This document shows, one piece after another, positions 10,459 to 63,712 of a stretch of 64,000 bases of DNA (its first letter is position 1; each line of letters starts with the position of its first letter). The stretch comes from Spiroplasma sp. NBRC 100390. GTDB lineage: Bacteria; Bacillota_I; Bacilli_A; Mycoplasmatales; Mycoplasmataceae. The stretch spans positions 434,001-498,000 of the forward strand of contig NZ_CP018022.1 in assembly GCF_001886495.1 (NCBI RefSeq), given 5' to 3'. Below the pieces are notes generated by a model that saw nothing but the letters and a program-made list of their open reading frames with translations, made no database searches and was not told where the DNA came from. The translations under genes and the position numbers were made by a program.

Positions 10459-10662
10459 TGGTTACCTCCTTTTATTAATTATAACGAATAGTAAAAAAGA
10501 AATGGAATTTTTTATTTTTTTCAATAGTGGTACCGTAAAAATTAAGATTTTTATATTTTTTTTTGAAAATTTTTGGTAATTTTATTAGGGAAACAATGAT
10601 AAAAAAATAAAAATATAGTATAAATATAAATATAGAAAGAAAAAAGGAGTAAGTTTAAAGTT

Positions 10663-49885: not shown

Positions 49886-49902
49886 TTTTTTTTTTTTTTT
49901 TT
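49886..49902 (+). promoter_or_regulatory. T17 tract, candidate phase-variable promoter of the 49948 lipoprotein
   Basis: Exactly 17 T followed by GTTAAATTATTATTATAT, where TTAAAT (49904) or TATTAT (49910) could be the -10. The lipoprotein starts 45 bp downstream. Confidence 0.55.
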
Positions 49903-49947
49903 GTTAAATTATTATTATATATTTACGAAAGGAAAAAAAGAATATAT

Positions 49948-51477
49948 ATGAAGAAATTATTATCTATATTAGGTGTTTTGTCATTATCGAGTTTAGGAAT
50001 AAATTCAGTTATTGCTTGTAAAGGTCCTGAATCATCAACTCGTAAACAAACTTTTGATGATGAAAACCAAATTTCTGATGATGAAACCCAAATTTCTGAT
50101 GATGAAAACCAAGAACAGCCAGTAGACTTAAATGCGCCAGTAAGCGAAGCACAAGATGAAGATAAAATTAGTGATGCTGATAAAAAAGAATTAACTTTAC
50201 CAAAAAGAGATTTAAGATTTGATATTTCTCAATTAAATTTTGATGGTTCCTATCCTTTTCAAAATAATGAAATTAGTAATATTTGAAATTATAAATTTGA
50301 TGATGAGCTTGAAAATGAACTTAAAATAGAAATTAAGGATAAATTTTTAAGAAAATTATCAGGTAGAGCTAGTTATTTAAGGATTTCTGAATCTGATTAT
50401 AAAATTGAAAAGGTTAGTCAGATTGACAGTGAATTTTCGAAAGAATTTATCTTTTCAATTAAAGCAGAATCAACATCATTGCAAATAAAAGGGCAAATTA
50501 ATGAAATTAAAATTAATTTTAGGCAAAAGAGTTTTATTGATTTTATTAAATATCGATGAACTAAATGAGTTTTGCCCGTTGGAAATAATGAGCATGTTTC
50601 AGTAGATGAAGCAAGTACAATTGTTGCTGCTATGAAAGAAAAAATCGGTGTTCCTATTTTAGAGAAGGTAGGCTTTAACGAAAATCAACATTATGAAATA
50701 AAAAATCTTGATCAGATACAAGCGGGAGATTTATCAAGTGATATTATTTTAACTGTTGCTGGAAAACAAGGCAGTGTTTTAGAAAATTTACCATCAGTTG
50801 ACATTGTTTTAACTATTAGTGACAAAAGAGTTAATCTTAATAGATTTGAATATCTAGATGGTGAGTTAGCATACACTGGAATCAATAATTTGCGAGCTAT
50901 TAACCCAAGTAATATTACAGCTTTAGAAGCAGATTTTTTCTGTAAAGAACTTAAAAAAAGTATTCAGAATGCTATTGATAAGAGTTATCGATTAGGTGTT
51001 GATCCTGAATTTGATGTTGATTATACAATTCGTGGGCTTGAAAAAATTAAACCAGGAGCAGATTTAAGTGAAACATTTTGATTAGATGTTGTTGTTAAAC
51101 CAGAATCAAAACTATTATATGGAATGAGTGACCCTATTCGAGTACAAATTCAAAAAGAAACTAGAATCGATATTTCTGGTATTAAAGTTGGCCCATATAA
51201 TTGAAGTATTTCTAGTTGAGAGAAAAATAAAATTTGAGATGAGTTATCTGGAATTGAAAATATGAAAGCAGCTATTCGTAATTCAATTTCACAGAAGATT
51301 AGTAAAATTGCCCCAGTTGTGACGACACCTGACCAAAATTATAGAGTGATTGGACTTGGTAAGCTTAGTCGGCAAGATACTAGAGGTAAAAATATAACAA
51401 TAACAGTTGAAGCTCTCTCGTTAGTTTCAAAACATATCTATGGTAGTTTTAGTTTTAATGTAATTATAAAGAATTAA
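49948..51477 (+). CDS. Lipoprotein with acidic tandem repeat
   Basis: A 509-aa prolipoprotein with signal MKKLLSILGVLSLSSLGIN and lipobox VIAC (Cys about 24). Residues 35-60 hold an acidic tandem repeat (DDENQIS DDETQIS DDENQ) encoded by three 21-nt units. The body contains recurrent strands with a D-I-x-L-x-I pattern, e.g. DIVLTISDK, DVVVKPESK, NITITVEA. A T17 tract lies 46 bp upstream. AGGAAAAAAAG precedes ATG by about 10 nt; the longer in-frame ATG at 49861 would run through the T17 and is rejected. Six TGA Trp. No known domain. Confidence 0.75.
50056..50115 (+). repeat. 21-nt tandem repeat, about 2.8 units
   Basis: Units of GATGATGAAAACCAAATTTC-type sequence at 50056, 50077 and 50098 encode the acidic DDENQIS repeat; copy number may vary between strains. 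Confidence 0.7.
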
Positions 51478-51488
51478 TTTATATTACT

Positions 51489-51518
51489 AAAAAATGCATT
51501 TCAACAATGCATTTTTTA
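51489..51518 (+). terminator. Terminator after the 49948 lipoprotein
   Basis: AAAAAATGCATT pairs with AATGCATTTTTT (51489-51500, 51506-51517). Confidence 0.85.
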
Positions 51519-51595
51519 ATTTTTATTAATAATTGAAGTAGGAAAACATCAACTAGATATTTGCAGTAATATTTTTTAACAGTTATTAAAACCAC

Positions 51596-51624
51596 TTTTT
51601 TTTTTTTTTTTTAAGTGCTACAAT
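51596..51624 (+). promoter_or_regulatory. T17 tract with TACAAT -10, promoter of the 51695 lipoprotein
   Basis: T17 at 51596-51612, then AAGTGC and TACAAT (51619-51624); start codon 71 bp downstream. Confidence 0.6.
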
Positions 51625-51694
51625 CATTAGTATAGAAAAATATGATAGAAACTTTACTACCCCATAAATATATTACATAAGGAGAATTTAATAA

Positions 51695-53301
51695 ATGAAA
51701 AAAATATTGAGTCTATTGGCAACATTAGGGATTGCTAATGTAGGTATTAGCACGATTATTGGTTGTAAATCATCAAATCCATCATCTGATGTTGAACAAG
51801 ATGATTTAGAATTACAAGTATCAAAAGATATTAAAATTTTAAATGATATTTCATTACAAGTTTCACAAGGAATTCAAAAATTTTTAACTGAAAAAAATAT
51901 TTTACTTTCAACAAATTATACTGGTAGTGATATTTTTAAAGAAGTCTCAAAAGATAGTCCCAATTATGATGTTATTAAGGAAGAGTATTTAAAGGACTAA
52001 AAAAATTATCAATTGAGTTACAAACGTTTATTGATAATTTAAATCGTGAAATTATTAATGATTATTCAAATTATTATATTGACAGTAAACCAATTGAGTT
52101 ATCTAATAATAAAATTTTTAAATTATCATACATTGATTTAGAATCTTTAAGTGGTCTTACAGGTGAAAGTCTTACCGATATTTTGGCAGCTAGATTAATT
52201 CATAGAATTTCTTATAAAGTTCAATATAAGACATATGATGCAAGTGTAACTTTAAATTTACAATTTATATTAACAAATGATAAAGTAAAAATGGAGCGAG
52301 CATTATCAGGAATAATTTCTAAAATATCAACCGTAGTAACAAATTTTTTAATTAACAATAAATTAATTGGCATTGATAAAAACCCTGAATTTATTGAATT
52401 ATTTAATAATTTTGATACTAATTATAGTCTTTATCATAAAAGATTAGATGATATATTTCAAAATATTTTAACAAAGGAATTAAAAAATAATTCCGATACT
52501 GTTCAAATTTTAGATAATCTTACATATGTGAATGATCAAACAATTGTTAATTTAATAACCGGGAGTGCATCAAATGTAAGGGACATAAATGCACAAACTG
52601 TTGGAACAATGGGGGCATGAAATCACACAACCTGATCATCATGAACTGGTGGCGAAGGTCATATTAGTGCTCTTAACCCTGAAGATTTTATTAAAATGTT
52701 TCGTAAAAATGTTAAAATGTTTGATGGAGTTAAAGAATCTGATAATTTATATTTAGGAAATTTTAATTTTAATTTATCAGCAATATTAATTGCTGGTGTT
52801 CCATTATCAGGATTAGTTGCGTCATCTAATGACATTCCAGTTCAAGTTACTTTATATGTAAGTGCTGATGGTTTACATCAAAAACTTTTAAATTATGCCA
52901 ATATTATAATAGCTTTTTATAAATATTTTGAAATTGAATCAGCGGGTTATTATAAATTTAATACAATAAAAATTTCCCAAGATGTATATAACAAAATCGT
53001 TAATGATGGTAAATTATTATGAGACAATGCAATAAAATATTTAAGAGATGATTTTAAAGTATCTAATTTTGCTAAAGATTTAGATGATATTAATTTATTT
53101 ACATTAGGTAATCGTGATAAGGTCCTTGGTACTGCTTATTTAACTGTAGCAAATTCAACTACTTTGCAAAATAAAACATTAAAAGAAGGTGGCCCGCGTT
53201 GAAGAATGGACTTTTTATTTGGTGATTTAACTTTTAATAATTCAATTTTTTATACACCATGGACAGCAACTTATTTTAAACTTTCATTTCAAATTAAATA
53301 A
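51695..53301 (+). pseudogene. Frameshifted lipoprotein of the 14164/60042 family
   Basis: Signal MKKILSLLATLGIANVGIST and lipobox IIGC (Cys about 24) open a frame that ends at TAA 51998 after LKD. A second frame, open from about 51978 to TAA 53299, carries the rest of the family (KLSIELQTFIDNL, NDYSNYYIDSKPIELS, FRKNVKMFDGVKES, SAILIAGVPLSGLV). Both frames overlap at 51978-51998, so one indel restores 530 aa. The region has GTATTTAAAGGACTAAAAAAA runs prone to slippage. It may be a phase-off or pseudogene state. A T17 promoter lies upstream. Confidence 0.75.
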
Positions 53302-53433
53302 GAAATGAACATTATTATTGATAATAGTTACTTTAATATTTAATAATGAAATAACAAAAGTTGTTTATAATTAGATTTTATTAAACTAAAAATCTAAATT
53401 ATTAAAAATAATTGTGACATAATTAAGGATAAC

Positions 53434-53470
53434 AATAAAGCGTTTAAAACACTAATAACGCTTTATTTTT
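53434..53470 (+). terminator. Terminator-like hairpin downstream of the 51695 pseudogene
   Basis: AATAAAGCGTT / AACGCTTTATT, 11-bp stem with a T run, about 135 bp after the stop. Confidence 0.65.
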
Positions 53471-53532
53471 TAGTGGTTTTAGGATATAATTATTATATAG
53501 ATTTTGGGGTTAATTAAAGTGGGTGCCAAATA

Positions 53533-55323
53533 ATGAAGAGCAATGACATTAAAATTTTAAAAATTAAACCAATTAAGCAAGGCCTTCTTAATAATCAGTA
53601 TCCTGATTATCAAGAGCCTTCTTTAATTACTAAGTCGCATTTTTTTGGTGGTGAAAATAGCCATTTTTTTAATAATGGTTTTTTTGCAACAAAACCATCT
53701 CTTCAAAAGCAAATGCTTGAACAAAATTATTCTTCTTCATTAACCCGATGTCGAGAATTAAATTTAAATCTTGATAACCCCGATGCATTAAGAGTGTTAC
53801 ATAATCAAGCAAAGATGTTGGAACAAGAAAAAACAAATTTTCATCAGCGGTTAGATAAAATTAAAGCAACATTTGATGAAAAAGCACCTTTTCATTATGA
53901 CAGTTATTTGCAAGAACCACCAGTAATAACCAAAAAGGTTGATTTAAATCATTTTAATGATAATCCAGACCATCGCCCTCTTAAAGATGATCGGATTAAT
54001 GTTGATCGTACATTGTTAAAAGCACAAGCACGTGCTATTGCACAAAAAATTGTACAAAAAACTGAGCAGGAATCACCTGATAAAACGACTGAAATAGTTG
54101 TTAAAAATGAAACTGTTTCAAAACCAAAATCAATTTTAGCAGCGCATTTTCCTAAGGTTACAACTATAAACCCAGCACCGAAAAAAGATGTCATTGTAAC
54201 ACAAAGCTATAATAATAAAACGCAAAAGCAACAAAATTCTTCTTGAGGAAAATCACAACCCTTTTTTGCTAATACAATAAATTTAGGTAAACAAGAACCA
54301 AAATTTGAGCAGACAAATACCTCTGAACAATCAACAGCTAAGCCAGAAGATAAGGGCATTAATTTAAAAGTTTCACTTGATCGTGCTTCACAGGTTTATG
54401 ATGAGACTGATGTTATGGAATGAGATATTACAAAACGTCCAAATTTAGGTCTTGATCACACTACTAATAAATATTATCATCAAGAGGAAACTCCTAAAAA
54501 GGAAGAAGATAAGGTAACTGATTTGTTGTTAGAGCAAAAAGATGATTCTGAAACATCACGAGCAATTGAAATTGATGAACCAGTAGGAAGTTATCGAATA
54601 AATAATTTTTATACTAGTTTATTTGATACTCCGTTGCCTGCTGCTAAATCAGTAAAACGAGCTGCAAATGTTAAAATTAAACGAATCCGCGGAAAGAAGC
54701 GAGACAAGCATGTTAATTCTAATGATGAAGAACTAACGCAAGAAAATAAAAAAAATACTGTTCAAGCAACAACATTTTTTAGTAATAGTTATAAAATTCA
54801 ACAACTCCCAAACGGACGGCAAAGAATTAGCAAAATTAGAAAAAACAATATTATTACTTGACGAAATCCAGTTATTTTAACGGCACGGATTATCGCTATT
54901 GTTGGTCTAATTCTTTTATGTAGTACTTTTTTAATATTTAATAATTGAATTAATAATTCATCATTGGATTTATATAATTTTATTACAACAACTTTTGGCA
55001 AATTTGATTTTATTCAAACTAACGAAGATTATCTTTTGAGTAACCGGTTGTTTATGATTATATTACTTAGTGTTTATGCTATTGTGATTATTTTACCATT
55101 TAGTGTTATTCCTAACTTTAAAATCCAATTGTATCTTTTTTTACCGCTTGGTTTATTATTTTTAGGAGCAATAATGGGAATCGCCTTGTATGGTTATTTT
55201 TATAAGAATAATAATTTTGTTTTAACAAGTAGTATTATGCAAATTGTTAGTTATAGTTTTTTAATATTAGCAAATATCCTGATGCTAATAGGAATTTTAT
55301 ACTTAAAACGTCAAAAAAGATAA
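53533..55323 (+). CDS. Large protein with disordered cytoplasmic part and C-terminal membrane domain
   Basis: A 596-aa protein. Residues 1-430 are low-complexity, rich in K, Q, E, N and P, with repeated PSL.TKS and KPKSIL patches, then a basic stretch (VKIKRIRGKKRDKH, about 376). The last 140 residues hold four membrane spans (ILTARIIAIVGLILLCSTFLI, LFMIILLSVYAIVIILPFSVI, YLFLPLGLLFLGAIMGIALYG, ILANILMLIGILYL). Two TGA Trp. Start ATG 53533 lacks a strong site (GGGTGCCAAATA). No recognised family; a tethered scaffold is a possible reading. Confidence 0.65.
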
Positions 55324-55324
55324 T

Positions 55325-55350
55325 ACTAAGTTTTTTAAACTTAGTGTTTT
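55325..55350 (+). terminator. Terminator after the 53533 gene
   Basis: ACTAAGTTT / AAACTTAGT stem-loop. Confidence 0.7.
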
Positions 55351-55402
55351 AATGTTAAAATAATATTGCTAATTATATTATTAATAAGGGAAGTGAATAT
55401 AA

Positions 55403-56536
<1,134 letters not shown>

Positions 56537-56551
56537 GAAAGGATTATTGTG

Positions 56552-58699
56552 ATGTCTGAAAAGTTACGTGGTTATTTAAAATTAATTGTTTTTGAATCAA
56601 AGAATGGTTATCGGATTTGTAAATTTCAATTAGAAAAAGACAAAACACATTTTATTTTTATTAAAGGGTTTTTATCAGCTTTACAACCTGATCAATTATA
56701 TGAATTAACTGGTGAATTTGTTTATAATAATCGTTATGGAGAAAGTTTTGAAGTTAACGAATTAAAACAAATTGCTCCTCAAAGTAATGATGAAGTTTTA
56801 AAATATTTAACAAGTAGTTTGTTTCCAACGATTGGACCAAAGACAGCACAAAGTATTATTGATTATTATGAAAACGATGTTGTTAGTAAAATTAAAGCAA
56901 ATGTATTAGCGTTAAAGCAAATCCCGGGGGTTACTTCTAAGCAAGCCGATATTATAGCAAAAGCATTTCAGACAATGAGTCGGGATGATGAATTAAATCA
57001 TCAGTTTAATCAAAAAGGGTTATCTTTACAAGTTTTGTCATTATTAAAGACAAAATACAATGTTGACCAAATTTATGCATTATTAACAAAGGACCCTTAT
57101 TCATTGTTATTAAAAGATAATATTTCGTTTAAAACAATTGATAAAATCTACTTAGCATTTGAACAAAATCCGCTTAGTAATATTCGAATTGCTTATTATG
57201 CTTGGTATTTAGCAAAAGAATTTTGTAATAATACTGGGGATACTTATTTAACATTAGAACAATTAACAACTATTTTGCAAAAACATTTTGATAATTTAAC
57301 AAAGGAATCTATTTTAACTGGATTAAAATATAGTAAAGAAATTAATTTATTAATTTTTAAAAACGATAAAATTTATGTTGCTGAAATATATCATAGTGAA
57401 CTAAATATTGCCGCAATGTTAGGTGGTTTAAATTCAACGGAACAATATGATGAAGAAAAACTAGAAAAATATGTTCAGGAGTTAACAAGTAAAAAACAAA
57501 TTAGTTACAATATAAATCAAACGAAGGCAATTAAAGCTGCTGTTGATTCGAATTTTTTAGTAATTATTGGTGGCCCAGGAACTGGAAAAACAACTGTCGT
57601 TGATGGAATTGTTAACATTTTAAAAAAAGTTTATCAACAATCAAAAATTGTTTTAGCAGCCCCAACTGGAAAAGCAGCAAAACGATTACGAGAGAAAACA
57701 GGGCAAAAAGCATTAACAATTCATAAGTTATTAAAATATGATGCAATTACAAATCAGTTTTTTTATAATGAAAATAATCCATTAGAAAATGACATTTTAA
57801 TTTTAGATGAAGTTAGTATGGTTGATAGTTTATTATTATCTCAGATTGCTAAAGCTAGTTTAAATCTACGAAAATTAATTTTAATTGGTGATCCAAATCA
57901 GTTACCTTCTGTTGCTTGCGGTGATATTTTACGTGATATTATCCAGAGTGGTGCTTTTAATGTTATTAAGTTAGAAGAAGTTTATCGGCAAGAGGCGGGG
58001 AACGATATTCTAGAATTAAGTTATGCGATTGAACAAGATCATTTTGAATATGATTTATTAAATAAAAGAGACTTAACTTTTATTGAAGAAACTGATCCCC
58101 ATTTATTATTATCAACAATTGGTGATTTATATCAAAAACTTAATGAAGAAAAAGCGGGAGATTATAATGCAATTCAAGTGATTGCTCCAATGTATAATGG
58201 TCCTGTTGGCATTAATATGTTAAACACTTATTTACAAGATAAACTAAATCGTTCTTATGGTCAAAAAGAACTTAAAATTGGTTATCGAACTTTTCGTGTT
58301 AATGATAAAGTAATGCAATTGAAAAATCGCCCCGAATTAGAAATTTATAATGGTGATGTTGGCGTTATTATTGATATTAAAAAAGATAAAAACTTTAATG
58401 ATGTTTTACTAGTAAAATATGACAACATTGTTGAATATAATAAAGAAATGTACTATGATATTACTTTAGCTTATGCATGTAGTGTGCATAAATTACAAGG
58501 AAGTGAGTACGATAATATTATTTTTGTTATTACCAAAAGTTTTTGAATTATGTTAAAACGAAATCTAATATATACTGCAATTACCCGAGCAAAAACAAAC
58601 TTATATTTAATTGGACAGCAAAATGCTTTTTTGTATGGAGTTAATAATTTGCCACAAAAACGACGAACAACATTACAAGAAGTTATTAAAAACTATTAA
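56552..58699 (+). CDS. recD2: RecD2-like ATP-dependent 5'-3' DNA helicase
   Basis: A 715-aa superfamily 1B helicase. N-terminal OB-like domain, then helix-hairpin-helix repeats (LFPTIGPKTAQSIIDYYEN, LKQIPGVTSKQADIIA), Walker A IGGPGTGKTT (about 345), motif II LDEVSMVD (about 416), motif III LIGDPNQLPSV and C-terminal motif VHKLQGSEYDNIIFV (about 650). It lacks RecB/RecC partners here, as in Firmicutes RecD2, which acts in replication-fork repair. AGAAAGGA supports ATG 56552 over GTG 56549. The frame crosses one TGA (58544) near the end. Confidence 0.93.
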
Positions 58700-58811
58700 A
58701 AGATAAGTTAGTTTACTTTTTAAAATTATATTGAATTATAATAAAGGATTTAATAAATAGTATACCAATATATGCAAAAATGAAATAAATTATTTTTTTC
58801 GACCAAAACAG

Positions 58812-58836
58812 TTTTTTTTTTTTTTTTTGTTATAAT
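58812..58836 (+). promoter_or_regulatory. T17 tract with TATAAT -10, no protein gene following
   Basis: T17 at 58812-58828, then GT and a perfect TATAAT (58831-58836). The downstream transcript would be non-coding for over 200 nt. Confidence 0.65.
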
Positions 58837-58842
58837 GATGGT

Positions 58843-58965
58843 GCTTAAAACTAAAACTATAGCAGTTTATTTTTAAGCGGACATAGAAACATATTTTATA
58901 GTTTTCATTAGTTTATATTTAAAACGTGTAATTAAAGTTAATTTTAATTGCACGTTTTATTTTTT
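58843..58965 (+). ncRNA. Candidate small RNA, about 120 nt, with T17 promoter
   Basis: A -10 TATAAT at 58831 and a strong terminator at 58921-58965 bracket about 120 nt with no ribosome site and no useful frame. The 5' part GCTTAAAACTAAAACTATAG pairs with TTATTTTTAAGC further on. No match to SRP RNA, RNase P, tmRNA or 6S signatures. Because its promoter is a T17 unit like those of the lipoproteins, it could be a switchable regulatory RNA. Confidence 0.5.
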
Positions 58966-58967
58966 TA
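58921..58967 (+). terminator. Strong terminator at the end of the candidate sRNA
   Basis: AAAACGTG / CACGTTTT extended by TAATTAAA / TTTTAATTG gives a 16-bp stem (58921-58936 with 58943-58958), then a T run. Confidence 0.85.
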
Positions 58968-59080
58968 TTACTTAAATGTTGGTGGTAGTTTTCAAAATTT
59001 TTCAACTTATTTTGATTATTCCATTGATTTTTTTTATTTTTTTATAATAATTAATATTAAATAAATGAAAGGAAAAAAGA

Positions 59081-59842
59081 ATGAAAGTAATTAAGGATAA
59101 GTGGTTTTATTATCAATTATGTGTGGGGATTCTTATTATTGGTGCATTATTTTCTGTTTATTTATACCATATGATTATGCAACAATGATTACGAAATATT
59201 GATTATCCTTTTTCACCAGTTTTATTTCAAGGTCAGTTTTTTAGCTTTTTTACTTATCAAAGTAATTTTTTGTTAGGAGTTTGATTTTTATCATCAGCGG
59301 TGACATTTAATAAACCCCAATACTGATGAAAAAACCAGTATACTAGAATTGCGCTTACTTCTTACATTAGTGTGACTTGTTTAACTTTTATGGGTTTTAT
59401 TTTACCAACAATGTTAATAGCCAAGACAATTAATGTTTGTGGTGTTTTAGTGGGGTTATTTTTTCACTTAATAACACCAATTCTAATGATTGTTTATTTA
59501 TTTATGCATCAAGAAAAAATAACAATGACTAATCGCCAATATTTTAAGAAAGTATTTTGTCTTTATTTAATTTATCCGCTTTTATATACTGGTTATTTAT
59601 CGTCTCGATTTGGAATGTATTTAAATGATCCGTTACTGAAAAATATTCCCTATGATATTATTTTTCCTTATGCGCTATTAACTCCTAAAGACTTTGACAT
59701 GGGGATTGGTACGGCGCTTGAATTAATTTTTTCTTTCATTATTGTTTTCATTATTGCGTATGTTTTATTTATTTTAACTAATATAATGTATTTTTTTATT
59801 ATTAAAGCAAGTAACAAAAAACAAAAGGGACTTCAATTTTAA
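59081..59842 (+). CDS. DUF1600-like mollicute membrane protein
   Basis: A 253-aa protein with six spans. Contains FFTYQSNFLLGVWFL, a Pr6Pr/DUF1600-like motif, and spans such as CVGILIIGALFSVYLYHMI, TCLTFMGFILPTMLIAK, GLFFHLITPILMIVYLFM, FIIVFIIAYVLFILTNIMYF. Family proteins are mollicute membrane proteins of unknown role. AAGGAAAAAAGA precedes the ATG. Four TGA Trp. Confidence in the family name is moderate. Confidence 0.6.
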
Positions 59843-59870
59843 TATTTTTCTATAATTATGTGTGAATTTG

Positions 59871-59906
59871 TACTAAATGAAATGAGATATTTCTCGTCTT
59901 TTAGTA
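59871..59906 (+). terminator. Terminator after the DUF1600-like gene
   Basis: TACTAAA ... TTTAGTA outer stem with an inner GAGA-TATT-TCTC hairpin. Confidence 0.6.
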
Positions 59907-59944
59907 TTATGGAATTGAACAAAATTGGGAGCAGTAATATTGTT

Positions 59945-59996
59945 AGCAAGATAGGGGGGCTACCTACTTGCTTTTTTTTTTTTTTTTTGTCATAAT
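59945..59996 (+). promoter_or_regulatory. Hairpin, T17 and CATAAT: variable promoter of the 60042 lipoprotein
   Basis: AGCAAGATAGG pairs with CCTACTTGCT (one bulge; 59945-59955 and 59963-59972) just before T17 (59972-59988). TTGCTT (59968-59973) and CATAAT (59991-59996) are 17 bp apart, so the tract fills the spacer of a usable promoter. Alternatively it is a terminator with an extreme T run. Confidence 0.6.
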
Positions 59997-60041
59997 TAGA
60001 AAATATATAGCGAAAATATATAAAAAGAGGAGGCTGAAAAA

Positions 60042-61595
60042 ATGAAAAAACTATTGGCGGTGTTGGGTATTTCTGCTTTTACTGTAACGGGGGCTAGCAC
60101 AATTGTTAGTTGTCACCAAGGGAACGAATCGGATGATTCAAATACTGGAGCGGCAAAGGATGCTGAGACTTTAAATAAAATTTCGCAACGGGTTTCAAAT
60201 GCCTTTTTAGAATATGCACGTACTAAAAACACAATTGATAGTAAAGATTATCAAACAACATTTGATGAGTTATATACCATGGTGAATAAGGACAGCCAAA
60301 GTAAAGACTTGGATCCAACTGATTCCAAAGTTGTTGCTGCTTTACAAATTTTAAAAACTAGTTTTATGGCAACTTTAAATAATGTAAGTCAGCAAATTAT
60401 TAATGATTATTCAAATTATTATATTGATACAAAACCAATTGATTTATCGGAGGATAGTTTCAAATATAATTTGAATTTTATTGATACGGAAGAATTAGCA
60501 AAGTTATCTAATAATCCGGCTGTTAAAAATATTAAGGCAGTTCGATTAGATTTTAGTTTTAGTTTTAGGGTTAATTTTAAAAATTTATCAACAACTTCAA
60601 ATTACTTTATCCAATATGTTATTACTGATGATCCAAAAACAATGGGTGATGTTTTAAACGGGGTTGTTAGTAAGATTTCAAAAGTAATTGTGAATTTTTT
60701 CAATAAACAAGGAACATTCCAAATTGATAAAACTCCAGGTTTTGAAGAAATATATAATGATTTTAATGTTAACTATACACAAGGATTTGCTGATTTAGAT
60801 AATATTATTTTTAATAAATTAAAAACAGCAATTGAGCAAGATCCTGATTTAAAGGACCTTGTTGAAAGTGTTAAATATAATTCTTCAATATCTTTATTAA
60901 CGTTATTAACAAGTGCTATTAACAATAGTACAAATGGGGTTGATGTTGTAACTGAAAAAACAGCATCTTATGTTTGAACTGGAATGGGCTATCAACCAGA
61001 TAAAATTACGCCAGAAAATTTTGTTAAATTTTATCGTTCATTAGTTAATATTTTTAATACCGGGGGTAATAATTTGAATTTAGCGTATTTTAATATTAAT
61101 TTAGCAAAAATTCAAATTGCTGGATTTCCATTATCTGGAGCTGTTATGAATGGGGGAGAAACTTTAAAAGTTCAAGTTGAAATTACAAAAGATGGTTTGG
61201 ACAAAAAATTGATGGAATATGGTAAGTTAGTAACTGCTTTCTATAAACATTTCCGTCTTGAATCAAATAAAAATTCAGCAGTTTGACATCTTAGTGAGGA
61301 TGCGTTTAATAAGATTTTAGCTTTACCAGAATATAAATATCAAAAAGTTTTAAAAATTTTAATTGATGATTTTAAAGCGTCTGATGATGCCAAAAATTTA
61401 TCAGGATTAGATATTTTTAACACTGGTGATTGAGAAAAACGAGGACATAATGTTACCTTAAATGATGCAAAGGATACCTTTTCATTACGTCGTCGTGCAG
61501 TTTGAAATTTTGATTTAATATTTGGAACAAATAATGCTGTGTATTATACGGGTTGAACATCAACATTATTTACATTGGAATTTACTAAAAAATAA
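60042..61595 (+). CDS. Lipoprotein, tandem pair member 1
   Basis: A 517-aa prolipoprotein: MKKLLAVLGISAFTVTGAST, lipobox IVSC (Cys about 24). Family landmarks: DAETLNKISQRVSNAFLEY, NDYSNYYIDTKPIDLSED, NFIDTEELAKLSNN, ENFVKFYRSLVNIFNTGG, AKIQIAGFPLSGAV, SLRRRAVWNFDLIFGTNN and final YYTGWTSTLF. It is about 85 percent identical to the gene at 61795, also 517 aa. AGAGGAGG is 9 nt before ATG. Five TGA Trp. Controlled by the T17 unit at 59972. Function unknown; surface-exposed variable antigen is the natural guess. Confidence 0.8.
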
Positions 61596-61609
61596 AGGTA
61601 ACTTAAAAT

Positions 61610-61632
61610 AACAAGAAGTTTCTTGTTTTTTT
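61610..61632 (+). terminator. Terminator after the first tandem lipoprotein
   Basis: AACAAGAA / TTCTTGTT stem then T residues. Confidence 0.75.
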
Positions 61633-61696
61633 ATTTGTTTTAAGATGTAAGCAATAATTTTAATTCGTTATCTTAAACCTAATATGTATCAAATAT

Positions 61697-61753
61697 AGCT
61701 TAAAATTTTACATAATTTTAAGCTAGGTTTTTTTTTTTTTTTTTCAATACAAT
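61697..61753 (+). promoter_or_regulatory. Hairpin, T17 and TACAAT: variable promoter of the 61795 lipoprotein
   Basis: AGCTTAAAATT / AATTTTAAGCT hairpin (61697-61707, 61714-61724) precedes T17 (61728-61744) and TACAAT (61748-61753), 42 bp before the start. It mirrors the layout at 59945. Confidence 0.6.
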
Positions 61754-61794: not shown

Positions 61795-63348
61795 ATGAAA
61801 AAATTACTAGTATTTTTAGGGATTTCTGCTCTTTCAATAACTGGTGCTAGTACAATTGTTAGTTGTCATCAAAAGTGACAGCCAGATGATTTAGATGATG
61901 GCGGTCATAAGGATGCTGAGACCTTAAATAAAATTTCGCAACGGGTTTCAAATGCCTTTTTAGAATATATTCGTAATAAAAGTACAATTAATAGTAAAGA
62001 TTATCAAACAAAATTTGATGAATTATATACTATAGTTGATAAATTCAATCAAACCAAATACTTGGATCGAACTGATTCCAAAGTTACTGCTGCTTTGCAA
62101 ATTTTAAAAACTAGTTTTATGGCAACATTTAATAATATAAGTCAGCAAATTATTAATGATTATTCAAATTATTATATTGATACAAAACCAATTGATTTAT
62201 TTGAGGATAGTTTCAAATATAATTTGAATTTTATTGATACGGAAGAATTGGCAAAAGTATCTAATAATTCAATTGTGAAAGATACTAAGGCGGCGCGCTT
62301 AGATTTTAGTTTTAGTTTTAAGGTTAATTTTAAAAATTTATCAACAACTTCAAATTACTTTATTCAATATGTTATTACTGATAATCCAAAAATAATGAAA
62401 GACGTCTTAAATGGGATTGTCCAAAAACTGTCGAAAGTAATTGTGAATTTTTTCATTAATGAAGGAACATTTCAAATTGATAAAACTGATGGTTTTAAAT
62501 CAATTTATGATAATTTTAATATTAATTATACGGAATGATTTGCTGATTTAGATAGTATTATTTTTAATAAATTAAAAACAGCAATTGAAGAAAACCCTGA
62601 TTTAAAGAACCTTGTTGGAAGTATTAAATATAATTCTTCAATATCATTATTAACGTTATTAACAAGTGCTATTAACAATAGCACAAATGGGGTTGATGTT
62701 GTGAATGAAAAAACAGCTTCTTATGTTTGAACTGGAATGGGCTATCAACCAGATAAAATTACGCCAGAAAATTTTGTTAAATTTTATCGTTCATTAGTTA
62801 ATATTTTTAATACCGGGGGTAATAATTTGAATTTAGCATATTTTAATGTTAATTTAGCAAAAATCCAAGTTGCTGGATTCCCATTATCTGGTGCCGTTAT
62901 GAATAATGGTGAAGCTTTAAAAGTTCAAGTTGAAATTACAAAAGATGGTTTGGATAAAAAATTAATGGAATATGGTAAGTTAGTAACTGCTTTCTATAAA
63001 CATTTCCGTCTTGAATCAAATAAAAATTCAGGGGTTTGGCATCTTAGTGAGGATGCATTTAATAAGATCTTAGCTTTACCAAAATATGATTATCGAAAAG
63101 TCTTAAAAATTTTAATTGATGATTTTAAAGCGTCTGATGCTGCCAAAAATTTATCAGGATTAAATATTTTTACAACGGGTAATTGAGCAAAAAAACAGTA
63201 TAATCTTACTTTAAATGATGCCAAAGATACTTTTTCATTGCGTCGTCGTGCTGATTGAAATTTTGATTTAATATTTGGAACAAATAATGCTGTGTATTAT
63301 ACGGGTTGAACATCAACATTATTTACATTGCAATTTACTAAAAAATAA
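61795..63348 (+). CDS. Lipoprotein, tandem pair member 2
   Basis: A 517-aa prolipoprotein: MKKLLVFLGISALSITGAST, lipobox IVSC. Highly similar along its whole length to the gene at 60042, the starts being 1753 bp apart. Differences cluster in the early region (EYIRNKSTIN, DKFNQTKYLDRT) and at NYTEWFADLDS. AGGAGG lies 8 nt before ATG. Six TGA Trp. Both copies look intact, so the duplication gives two independently switchable surface proteins, each with its own T17 unit. Confidence 0.8.
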
Positions 63349-63514: not shown

Positions 63515-63529
63515 TACTTTAACAACTTT

Positions 63530-63712
63530 AAAAAGCAATTTTGGATGTTACGGGAATTAGGTGCAAGTCCTAGGCTGTCCCAGCAACTGTAAAGTGGATG
63601 AAAGCTAACATATGCCATTGAGAAGATACTTCTTGAGAAGGAATAGCGAGTAAAGTGAAACTGAGCCAGTAGACCGATCTAAAAAACATTGATATTTATC
63701 AGTGCTGCCTTT
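63530..63712 (+). ncRNA. Cobalamin (B12) riboswitch aptamer
   Basis: The core signatures of this family occur in order. ACGGGAATTAGGTGCAAGTC and CTAGGCTGTCCCAG form the P4 region, followed by GCAACTGTAAAG (63583-63594), GCCATTG for the GCCACTG box (63614), GAGAAGGAATAGCGAG, and the B12-box-like AGCCAGTAGACC (63664-63675; compare AGTCAGGAGACC). A hairpin CATTGATATTTATCAGTG (63688-63705) fits the kissing-loop P13. The regulated gene must lie beyond the window. Confidence 0.8.

Follow-up and report, generated by a model that had tools for sequence, protein, structure and literature searches.

In Mycoplasma hyorhinis, the vlp lipoprotein genes (seven in strain HUB-1; PMC4198240) carry a poly-A tract in the promoter region, and insertions and deletions in this tract are reported to go with ON/OFF transcription (Citti and Wise, 1995, via PMC10502178). 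In Mycoplasma mycoides, the vmm lipoprotein promoter holds a variable repeat in its spacer (Persson, 2002, via PMC10502178), which PMC3053259 describes as poly-TA, and poly-G tracts are reported in M. agalactiae (PMC2824730; further background in PMC12815946). A motif described in 2011, GC(T)17-20, lies 88–113 nucleotides (nt) upstream of spmA-like lipoprotein genes of M. mycoides subsp. capri 95010, with GC(T)16 in M. capricolum; its authors call its function unknown, and their discussion prints it as GC(T)7-20 (PMC3053259). These mycoplasmas are placed in the Spiroplasma clade (PMC10634449). Here we analyze five runs of exactly 17 T in a 64,000-nt stretch of a Spiroplasma chromosome (the window; positions 434001–498000 of a single contig of 1,199,621 bp, where long open reading frames (ORFs) require TGA to be read as tryptophan), together with the other long T tracts of the same chromosome. 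The tracts are probably promoter spacers that vary by slippage, as in vlp: a −35/tract/−10 architecture is present at part of them and positions are shared between species at unequal length, from which we infer that tract length changes within a clone and affects transcription.

The likeness to vlp is that lipoprotein genes carry a homopolymer tract in their promoter region, located between −35 and −10 in 19 of the 44 long tracts of the chromosome (in the window, only at 59972). The differences are that vlp is poly-A whereas the five window tracts are all poly-T (two poly-A layouts occur in congeners), that there are seven vlp genes versus 44 scattered Spiroplasma tracts, some of them before transporters, and that switching is reported for vlp and predicted for the Spiroplasma tracts. 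They would work like vlp, yet we would not class them as vlp members, as they are not poly-A in the reading direction. The closest precedent is the GC(T)n motif, which likewise has GC and then 16–20 T upstream of lipoprotein genes; 13 of the 44 tracts read TTGC(T)17-18 (59972 in the window), and not all of these stand before lipoproteins. It differs in distance (88–113 nt before the ATG in M. mycoides, against 45–82 nt from tract end to start at four window tracts), and the passages of PMC3053259 on the motif name no −35 or −10 for it. The vmm promoter also has a variable-length repeat in its spacer, but this is a TA dinucleotide repeat and the Spiroplasma tracts are pure T.

The five T17 runs start at 49886, 51596, 58812, 59972 and 61728, all on the + strand and within 12 kb, exactly as the initial annotation had it. 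Only 0.009 T runs of at least 17 would be expected on the + strand of the window (third-order Markov estimate, tracts masked); the only other T run of at least 9 there is a T9 at 10556, and the longest A run is 8. The −10 boxes proposed after four tracts (TACAAT, TATAAT, CATAAT and TACAAT) are indeed located 2–6 nt downstream, and 49886 has only TTAAAT and TATTAT, the weaker candidates it had been credited with. The start codon is reached 45, 82, 252, 53, and 50 nt past the ends of the tracts at 49886, 51596, 58812, 59972, and 61728, respectively. The proposal that four of the five lie 43–83 bp before a lipoprotein start therefore stands with a measured range of 45–82 nt, corrected in that 58812 is the tract preceding a membrane protein gene instead, at 252 nt, and that the lipoprotein gene after 51596 is broken. 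The bacterial promoter consensus is TTGACA/TATAAT with an optimal spacer of 16–18 nt, and the −10 may bear a TG extension. Judged by this, 59972 is complete (TTGCTT, 17-nt spacer, CATAAT), 58812 and 51596 have a TG-extended −10, and the tract at 61728 has a strong hairpin ahead of it and TACAAT behind. The features are as follows.

49886–49902, + strand: T17 tract 1, 45 nt upstream of a spiralin-like lipoprotein gene; the weakest promoter of the five
49904–49909 and 49910–49915, + strand: weak −10 candidates of tract 1, TTAAAT (2 mismatches) and TATTAT (7 nt on)
49948–51477, + strand: lipoprotein gene, 509 amino acids (aa); weak similarity to spiralin models, under their cut-offs
51596–51612, + strand: T17 tract 2
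51619–51624, + strand: −10-like TACAAT of tract 2, 6 nt past the tract, TG in front (TGCTACAAT)
51695–53301, + strand: broken lipoprotein gene; 101-aa ORF at 51695–52000, remainder in another frame (listed ORF 52183–53301)
58812–58828, + strand: T17 tract 3
58831–58836, + strand: −10 TATAAT of tract 3, 2 nt past the tract; extended form TGTTATAAT
59028–59043, + strand: interrupted tract T8-A-T7, followed at once by ATAAT, 37 nt upstream of the membrane protein gene; candidate locked version
59081–59842, + strand: membrane protein gene, 253 aa, slightly under the Pr6Pr cut-off
59968–59973, + strand: −35-like TTGCTT of tract 4, overlapping the tract start
59972–59988, + strand: T17 tract 4; counterparts are T16 in genome G005 and T8-G-T7 in Spiroplasma poulsonii MSRO and genome G002
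59991–59996, + strand: −10-like CATAAT of tract 4, 2 nt past the tract; spacer from TTGCTT of 17 nt
60042–61595, + strand: lipoprotein gene, 517 aa
61696–61725, + strand: inverted repeat (hairpin), terminator-like, directly ahead of tract 5
61728–61744, + strand: T17 tract 5
61748–61753, + strand: −10-like TACAAT of tract 5, 3 nt past the tract
61795–63348, + strand: lipoprotein gene, 517 aa, paralogue of the gene at 60042 (437/517 identical)

A Pfam scan of nine window proteins gave no matches, and NCBIfam gave only matches below cut-off for the window genes (spiralin, signal-peptide and Pr6Pr models).

Counting T runs on either strand of the 1.2-Mb chromosome that holds the window (G000), we find 44 of at least 12 nt, the window's five included, of which two are T16, 30 are T17 and 12 are T18; none reaches 19. 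Lowering the threshold to 9 gives 66 runs, 22 of which measure 9–11. Since all 44 long runs measure 16–18 and the other 22 measure 9–11, the lengths 12–15 are empty and there is a sharp peak at 17.

The flanks of these tracts have the features of promoters. A −10-like hexamer, defined as having at most one mismatch to TATAAT and its first base −1 to +7 nt from the end of the tract, follows 28 of the 44 (4–13 in nine shifted control windows), with preferred offsets of +2 (13 tracts) and −1 (7 tracts), and the same holds for 29/39 tracts of the related genome G004 (controls 4–12) and 17/32 of G012 (controls 5–14), where flank analyses cover 32 of its 37 runs of at least 13. Exact matches to TATAAT in the range −1 to +8 follow 15/44 tracts in G000 (controls 0–2), 18/66 in G005 (0–5), 6/39 in G004 (0–1) and 8/32 in G012 (0–1), as compared to 19 of the 786 ordinary T5–9 runs of the window. 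On the upstream side, TTGC stands directly ahead of 13/44 G000 tracts versus 19/1961 short T runs (about 1%); it also precedes 13/66 tracts in G005 and 7/39 in G004, and is weaker in G012 (3/32) and G007 (2/26). The combination of TTG 3–5 nt ahead of the tract with a −10 behind it occurs at 19 of the 44, and their spacers of 14 (three tracts), 15 (four), 16 (three), 17 (five), 18 (one), 19 (one) and 20 nt (two) include good spacings as well as poor ones. Two isolated layouts have poly-A instead, TTG-A18-GCCT-TATAAT before a lipoprotein at 541449 of G007 and TTGC-A16-GCG-CATAAT at 1296703 of G004, and these fit a spacer role more than a T-specific one. Two lipoprotein promoters that closely resemble each other also occur within G000, with T18 at 720240 and T17 at 722342, 2.1 kb apart; the 45 nt upstream of the latter tract match their counterparts at window tract 59972, some 228 kb away, in all but one base.

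The strong hairpin directly ahead of 61728, and of some other tracts, raises the question of whether the tracts are intrinsic terminators of the upstream gene, and 7/44 tracts in G000 (about 2 expected) and 6/32 in G012 do pass the 95% control score. The hairpin is absent at most tracts, little or no excess is seen in G004 (3/39) and G007 (0/26), and the TTGC and −10 flanks belong to promoters, so that termination is weak as a general explanation (7/44 with a qualifying hairpin, though 61728 is among those that have one) and we regard it as very improbable.

For tracts acting as variable spacers, the proposed mechanism would run as follows: a −35 of the form TTG(C) runs up to the tract, and a TATAAT-like −10, at times TG-extended, starts no more than about 7 nt past the tract end, so that replication slippage, by altering the number of T by single bases, would change the −35 to −10 distance. 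The altered spacing is expected to increase, reduce or abolish transcription of the downstream surface lipoprotein or transporter gene. The MutS_V domain was found in 0/14 genomes of the genus as compared to 11/14 control genomes (no search was made for MutL), and slippage should go uncorrected since MutS was not found.

Related genomes show where length differs. For the 14 genus genomes, the counts of runs that reach 13, 16 and 19 nt or more are, respectively, 44/44/0 in G000, 16/9/0 in G001, 5/3/1 in G002, 12/7/0 in G003, 39/33/0 in G004, 66/65/40 in G005, 44/33/2 in G006, 26/25/0 in G007, 2/0/0 in G008, 15/14/0 in G009, 21/2/1 in G010, 7/4/0 in G011, 37/31/3 in G012 and 4/2/0 in G013. A reciprocal-best partner in G005 (protein identity of at least 45%) was found among tract genes for 23 of the 44 G000 tracts; 20 of the 23 also have a flank match above the 99% null (0.72; 1500 random pairs), and length differs in 19 of these 20. 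Examples are an ABC protein gene preceded by T17 in one genome and T20 in the other, the proteins being 96% identical, and T16 versus T21 with flanks 94–96% identical. Three further G000 tracts match G005 by flank at 0.90 or above (window 58812, 747265 and 935373), flank-only matches below 0.90 being left out of the count because many comparisons were made. For 58812 the matches are 381589 of G005 (T19, downstream flank 0.96) and 498240 of G012 (T16, downstream flank 0.78). G005 also has T tracts in pairs ahead of a single gene, the two starting 20–80 nt from each other and in many cases differing in length (for example 1192341/1192361, 120838/120870 and 997414/997447).

At the level of the family, TTGC(T)14+ gives 126 matches in 34/60 genomes and 9/12 genera, with a reversed control of 0/60, to be read in the light of CGTT occurring 2.3 times less often than TTGC in the window. 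Of the 83 TTGC tracts outside the genus, 36 were read and are 15–19 long, 25 having a −10 and 17 lying before lipoprotein-like genes, in stretches picked by the TTGC motif and with a −10 count that carries no control.

Homologues of the protein encoded at 60042 give a view that does not depend on the tract, as they were sought in 14 genomes without selecting for one. The only named relative found is from S. poulsonii MSRO_BK, 85% identical (the window's own record possibly being excluded there). From a longer list, 30 loci were taken and six without a clean start were dropped (L255, L261, L264, L269, L271 and L274); in the 24 upstream regions then read, a pure T tract lies within 330 nt in 12, a poly-A18 in one and a once-interrupted tract in two, while nine have none (10, 1, 2 and 8 of 21 when the three loci of G000 itself are removed). 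The tract at this promoter is T17 in G000, T16 in G005 and T8-G-T7 in both S. poulsonii MSRO (L079) and G002 (L250), the last two having the common layout TTG-T8-G-T7-GTCATAAT, in which the promoter is the same and its tract is interrupted.

These homologues bear on whether the tract is instead a fixed T-rich promoter element that replaces the −35 box, its length being no switch. Position and T identity are common to several species, many tracts lack TTG, and exact TATAAT follows 15/44 tracts in the T reading and 3/44 in the A reading, as such an element would have it. However, S. poulsonii retains the promoter with its tract interrupted, some 60042 homologues have about T7 with the same kind of −10, the two poly-A layouts exist, and the purity and length of the tracts appear to exceed what the element would need. 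We consider a fixed element unlikely.

The initial annotation offered two reasons for the equal length of the five window tracts, selection for optimal spacing and collapse of variable reads by the assembler, and neither fared well. For the G000 tracts that a −10 follows, the standard deviation is 2.2 nt for the tract-to-−10 distance versus 0.47 for tract length. Compensation between the two is weak in G000, where a correlation of rho −0.37 (p 0.05, n = 28) is borderline in favor of tuning, and none is seen in four other genomes (rho 0.07 in G005, 0.19 in G004, 0.12 in G007 and 0.31 in G012); tracts without a −10 are equally 16–18 long. Per-tract selection for spacing is therefore not favored as the cause. 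An assembly artefact, with truly variable lengths collapsed to about 17 in the consensus, would agree with the very narrow spread in G000, but collapse in a single assembly does not explain separate genomes at 14–20 and G005 at up to 25, 34, and 36, nor do the genomes' own modes (16 in G004, 17 in G000, 15–25 plus T34 and T36 in G005) or the 15–19 of other genera suggest it; we hold it to be highly unlikely, though an artefact confined to single tracts may occur.

The near-constant 16–18 T is most likely a genome-wide balance in which slippage both adds and removes T, the set-point varying from one species to another. Such a balance could also be functionless, T runs past about 10 reaching equilibrium near 17 as a neutral by-product of slippage without mismatch repair. 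All 44 tracts being 16–18 whether or not a −10 is present seems consistent with this, as do the 272 runs of at least 13 in 13 genus genomes (G000 included, G005 excluded), of which 65 measure 13–15, 200 measure 16–18 and 7 at least 19, and the failure to find MutS in the 14 genus genomes. Neutrality does not account for the TTGC and −10 enrichment, the lipoprotein bias and the positions shared at diverged promoters, nor for strand: the presumed leading strand carries the T of 40/44 long tracts versus 12/22 runs of 9–11 (Fisher p 0.001; counts made by hand, with the terminus presumed to lie before 595 kb). We rate a purely neutral origin as quite improbable. The leading-strand count is 40/44 instead of 43/44 because long ORFs at 595–614 kb already face the minus strand: at four tracts (596008, 598425, 611747 and 747265) the T strand is not the one used in the remainder of that half of the genome, and the long ORFs near the first three are on the minus strand. 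At 611747 (L248), a small reading frame on the minus strand has an A18 (T18 on the + strand) close to its start, after a ribosome-binding-like site, and slippage there might shift the reading frame instead of altering a promoter.

Against the reading of the tracts as slippage-variable spacers stand several results. A −10-like hexamer in range is lacking at 16/44 G000 tracts, and in G007 its association is not above controls (7/26 vs. 2–12; exact TATAAT 3/26 vs. 0–5). In the window, a clear −35 (TTGC) is found at 59972 only, one tract of five. When tracts are read as A, they have as a group no clear excess of −10 hexamers (3/44 vs. 1 in G000, 2/66 in G005, 1/39 in G004, 0/32 in G012 and 2/26 in G007). 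The 20 positions shared with G005 were drawn from genes pre-chosen for a tract, so that loss is under-counted, and with 9/24 homologues of 60042 having no tract, the tract is dispensable for that family. The pattern T14-N(0-8)-TATAAT occurs in 28/60 family genomes but in only 5/12 genera, with a reversed control of 11/60 (matches overlap, so these counts are not tracts). Finally, some tracts precede genes unlikely to be switched off, such as mraZ.

The genes downstream bear out the lipoprotein link, which, along with promoter placement and length variation between species, is the part of the originally claimed phase-variable promoter family that was upheld. The first gene is lipoprotein-like after 21/44 tracts by a crude lipobox pattern (4/5 in the window, one of them broken). 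A Pfam scan of 19 other first genes gave a match for 8 and none for 11, the matches being a phosphotransferase system (PTS) EIIA/EIIB protein, a PTS IIB, two ABC ATPases, DUF402, MraZ, an ABC-2 permease (below cut-off) and part of an MFS domain.

Literature searches limited to open-licence papers turned up none that describes poly-T switches in Spiroplasma promoters. Were the tracts to act as we propose, an insect-associated clade would own a large switchable repertoire of surface and transport genes, the GC(T)n motif would gain a role that can be tested, and the set-point that each species appears to have would serve as a natural experiment in the fixing of homopolymer length by slippage when mismatch repair is lacking. 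More tentatively, TTGC(T)n may be a family-wide, slippage-tuned promoter class, in which one global replication property, acting through a set-point for each species, determines the spacing by default and hence the ON/OFF mix for dozens of surface and transport genes at once; S. poulsonii-like lineages may lock promoters by interrupting the tract. The set-points would then possibly lie mostly at 13–15 or less in G010, at 16 in G004, 17 in G000 and about 20 in G005.

Downstream of the lipoprotein gene at 61795, the window also holds a cobalamin riboswitch (RF00174) at 63526–63696 on the + strand, scoring 79.2 bits against a cut-off of 31.5; a literature search found no paper pairing "Spiroplasma" with "cobalamin riboswitch". 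The genes downstream of it encode phosphorylase, deoxynucleoside kinase, transketolase, KDPG/KHG aldolase and nucleoside deoxyribosyltransferase domains.

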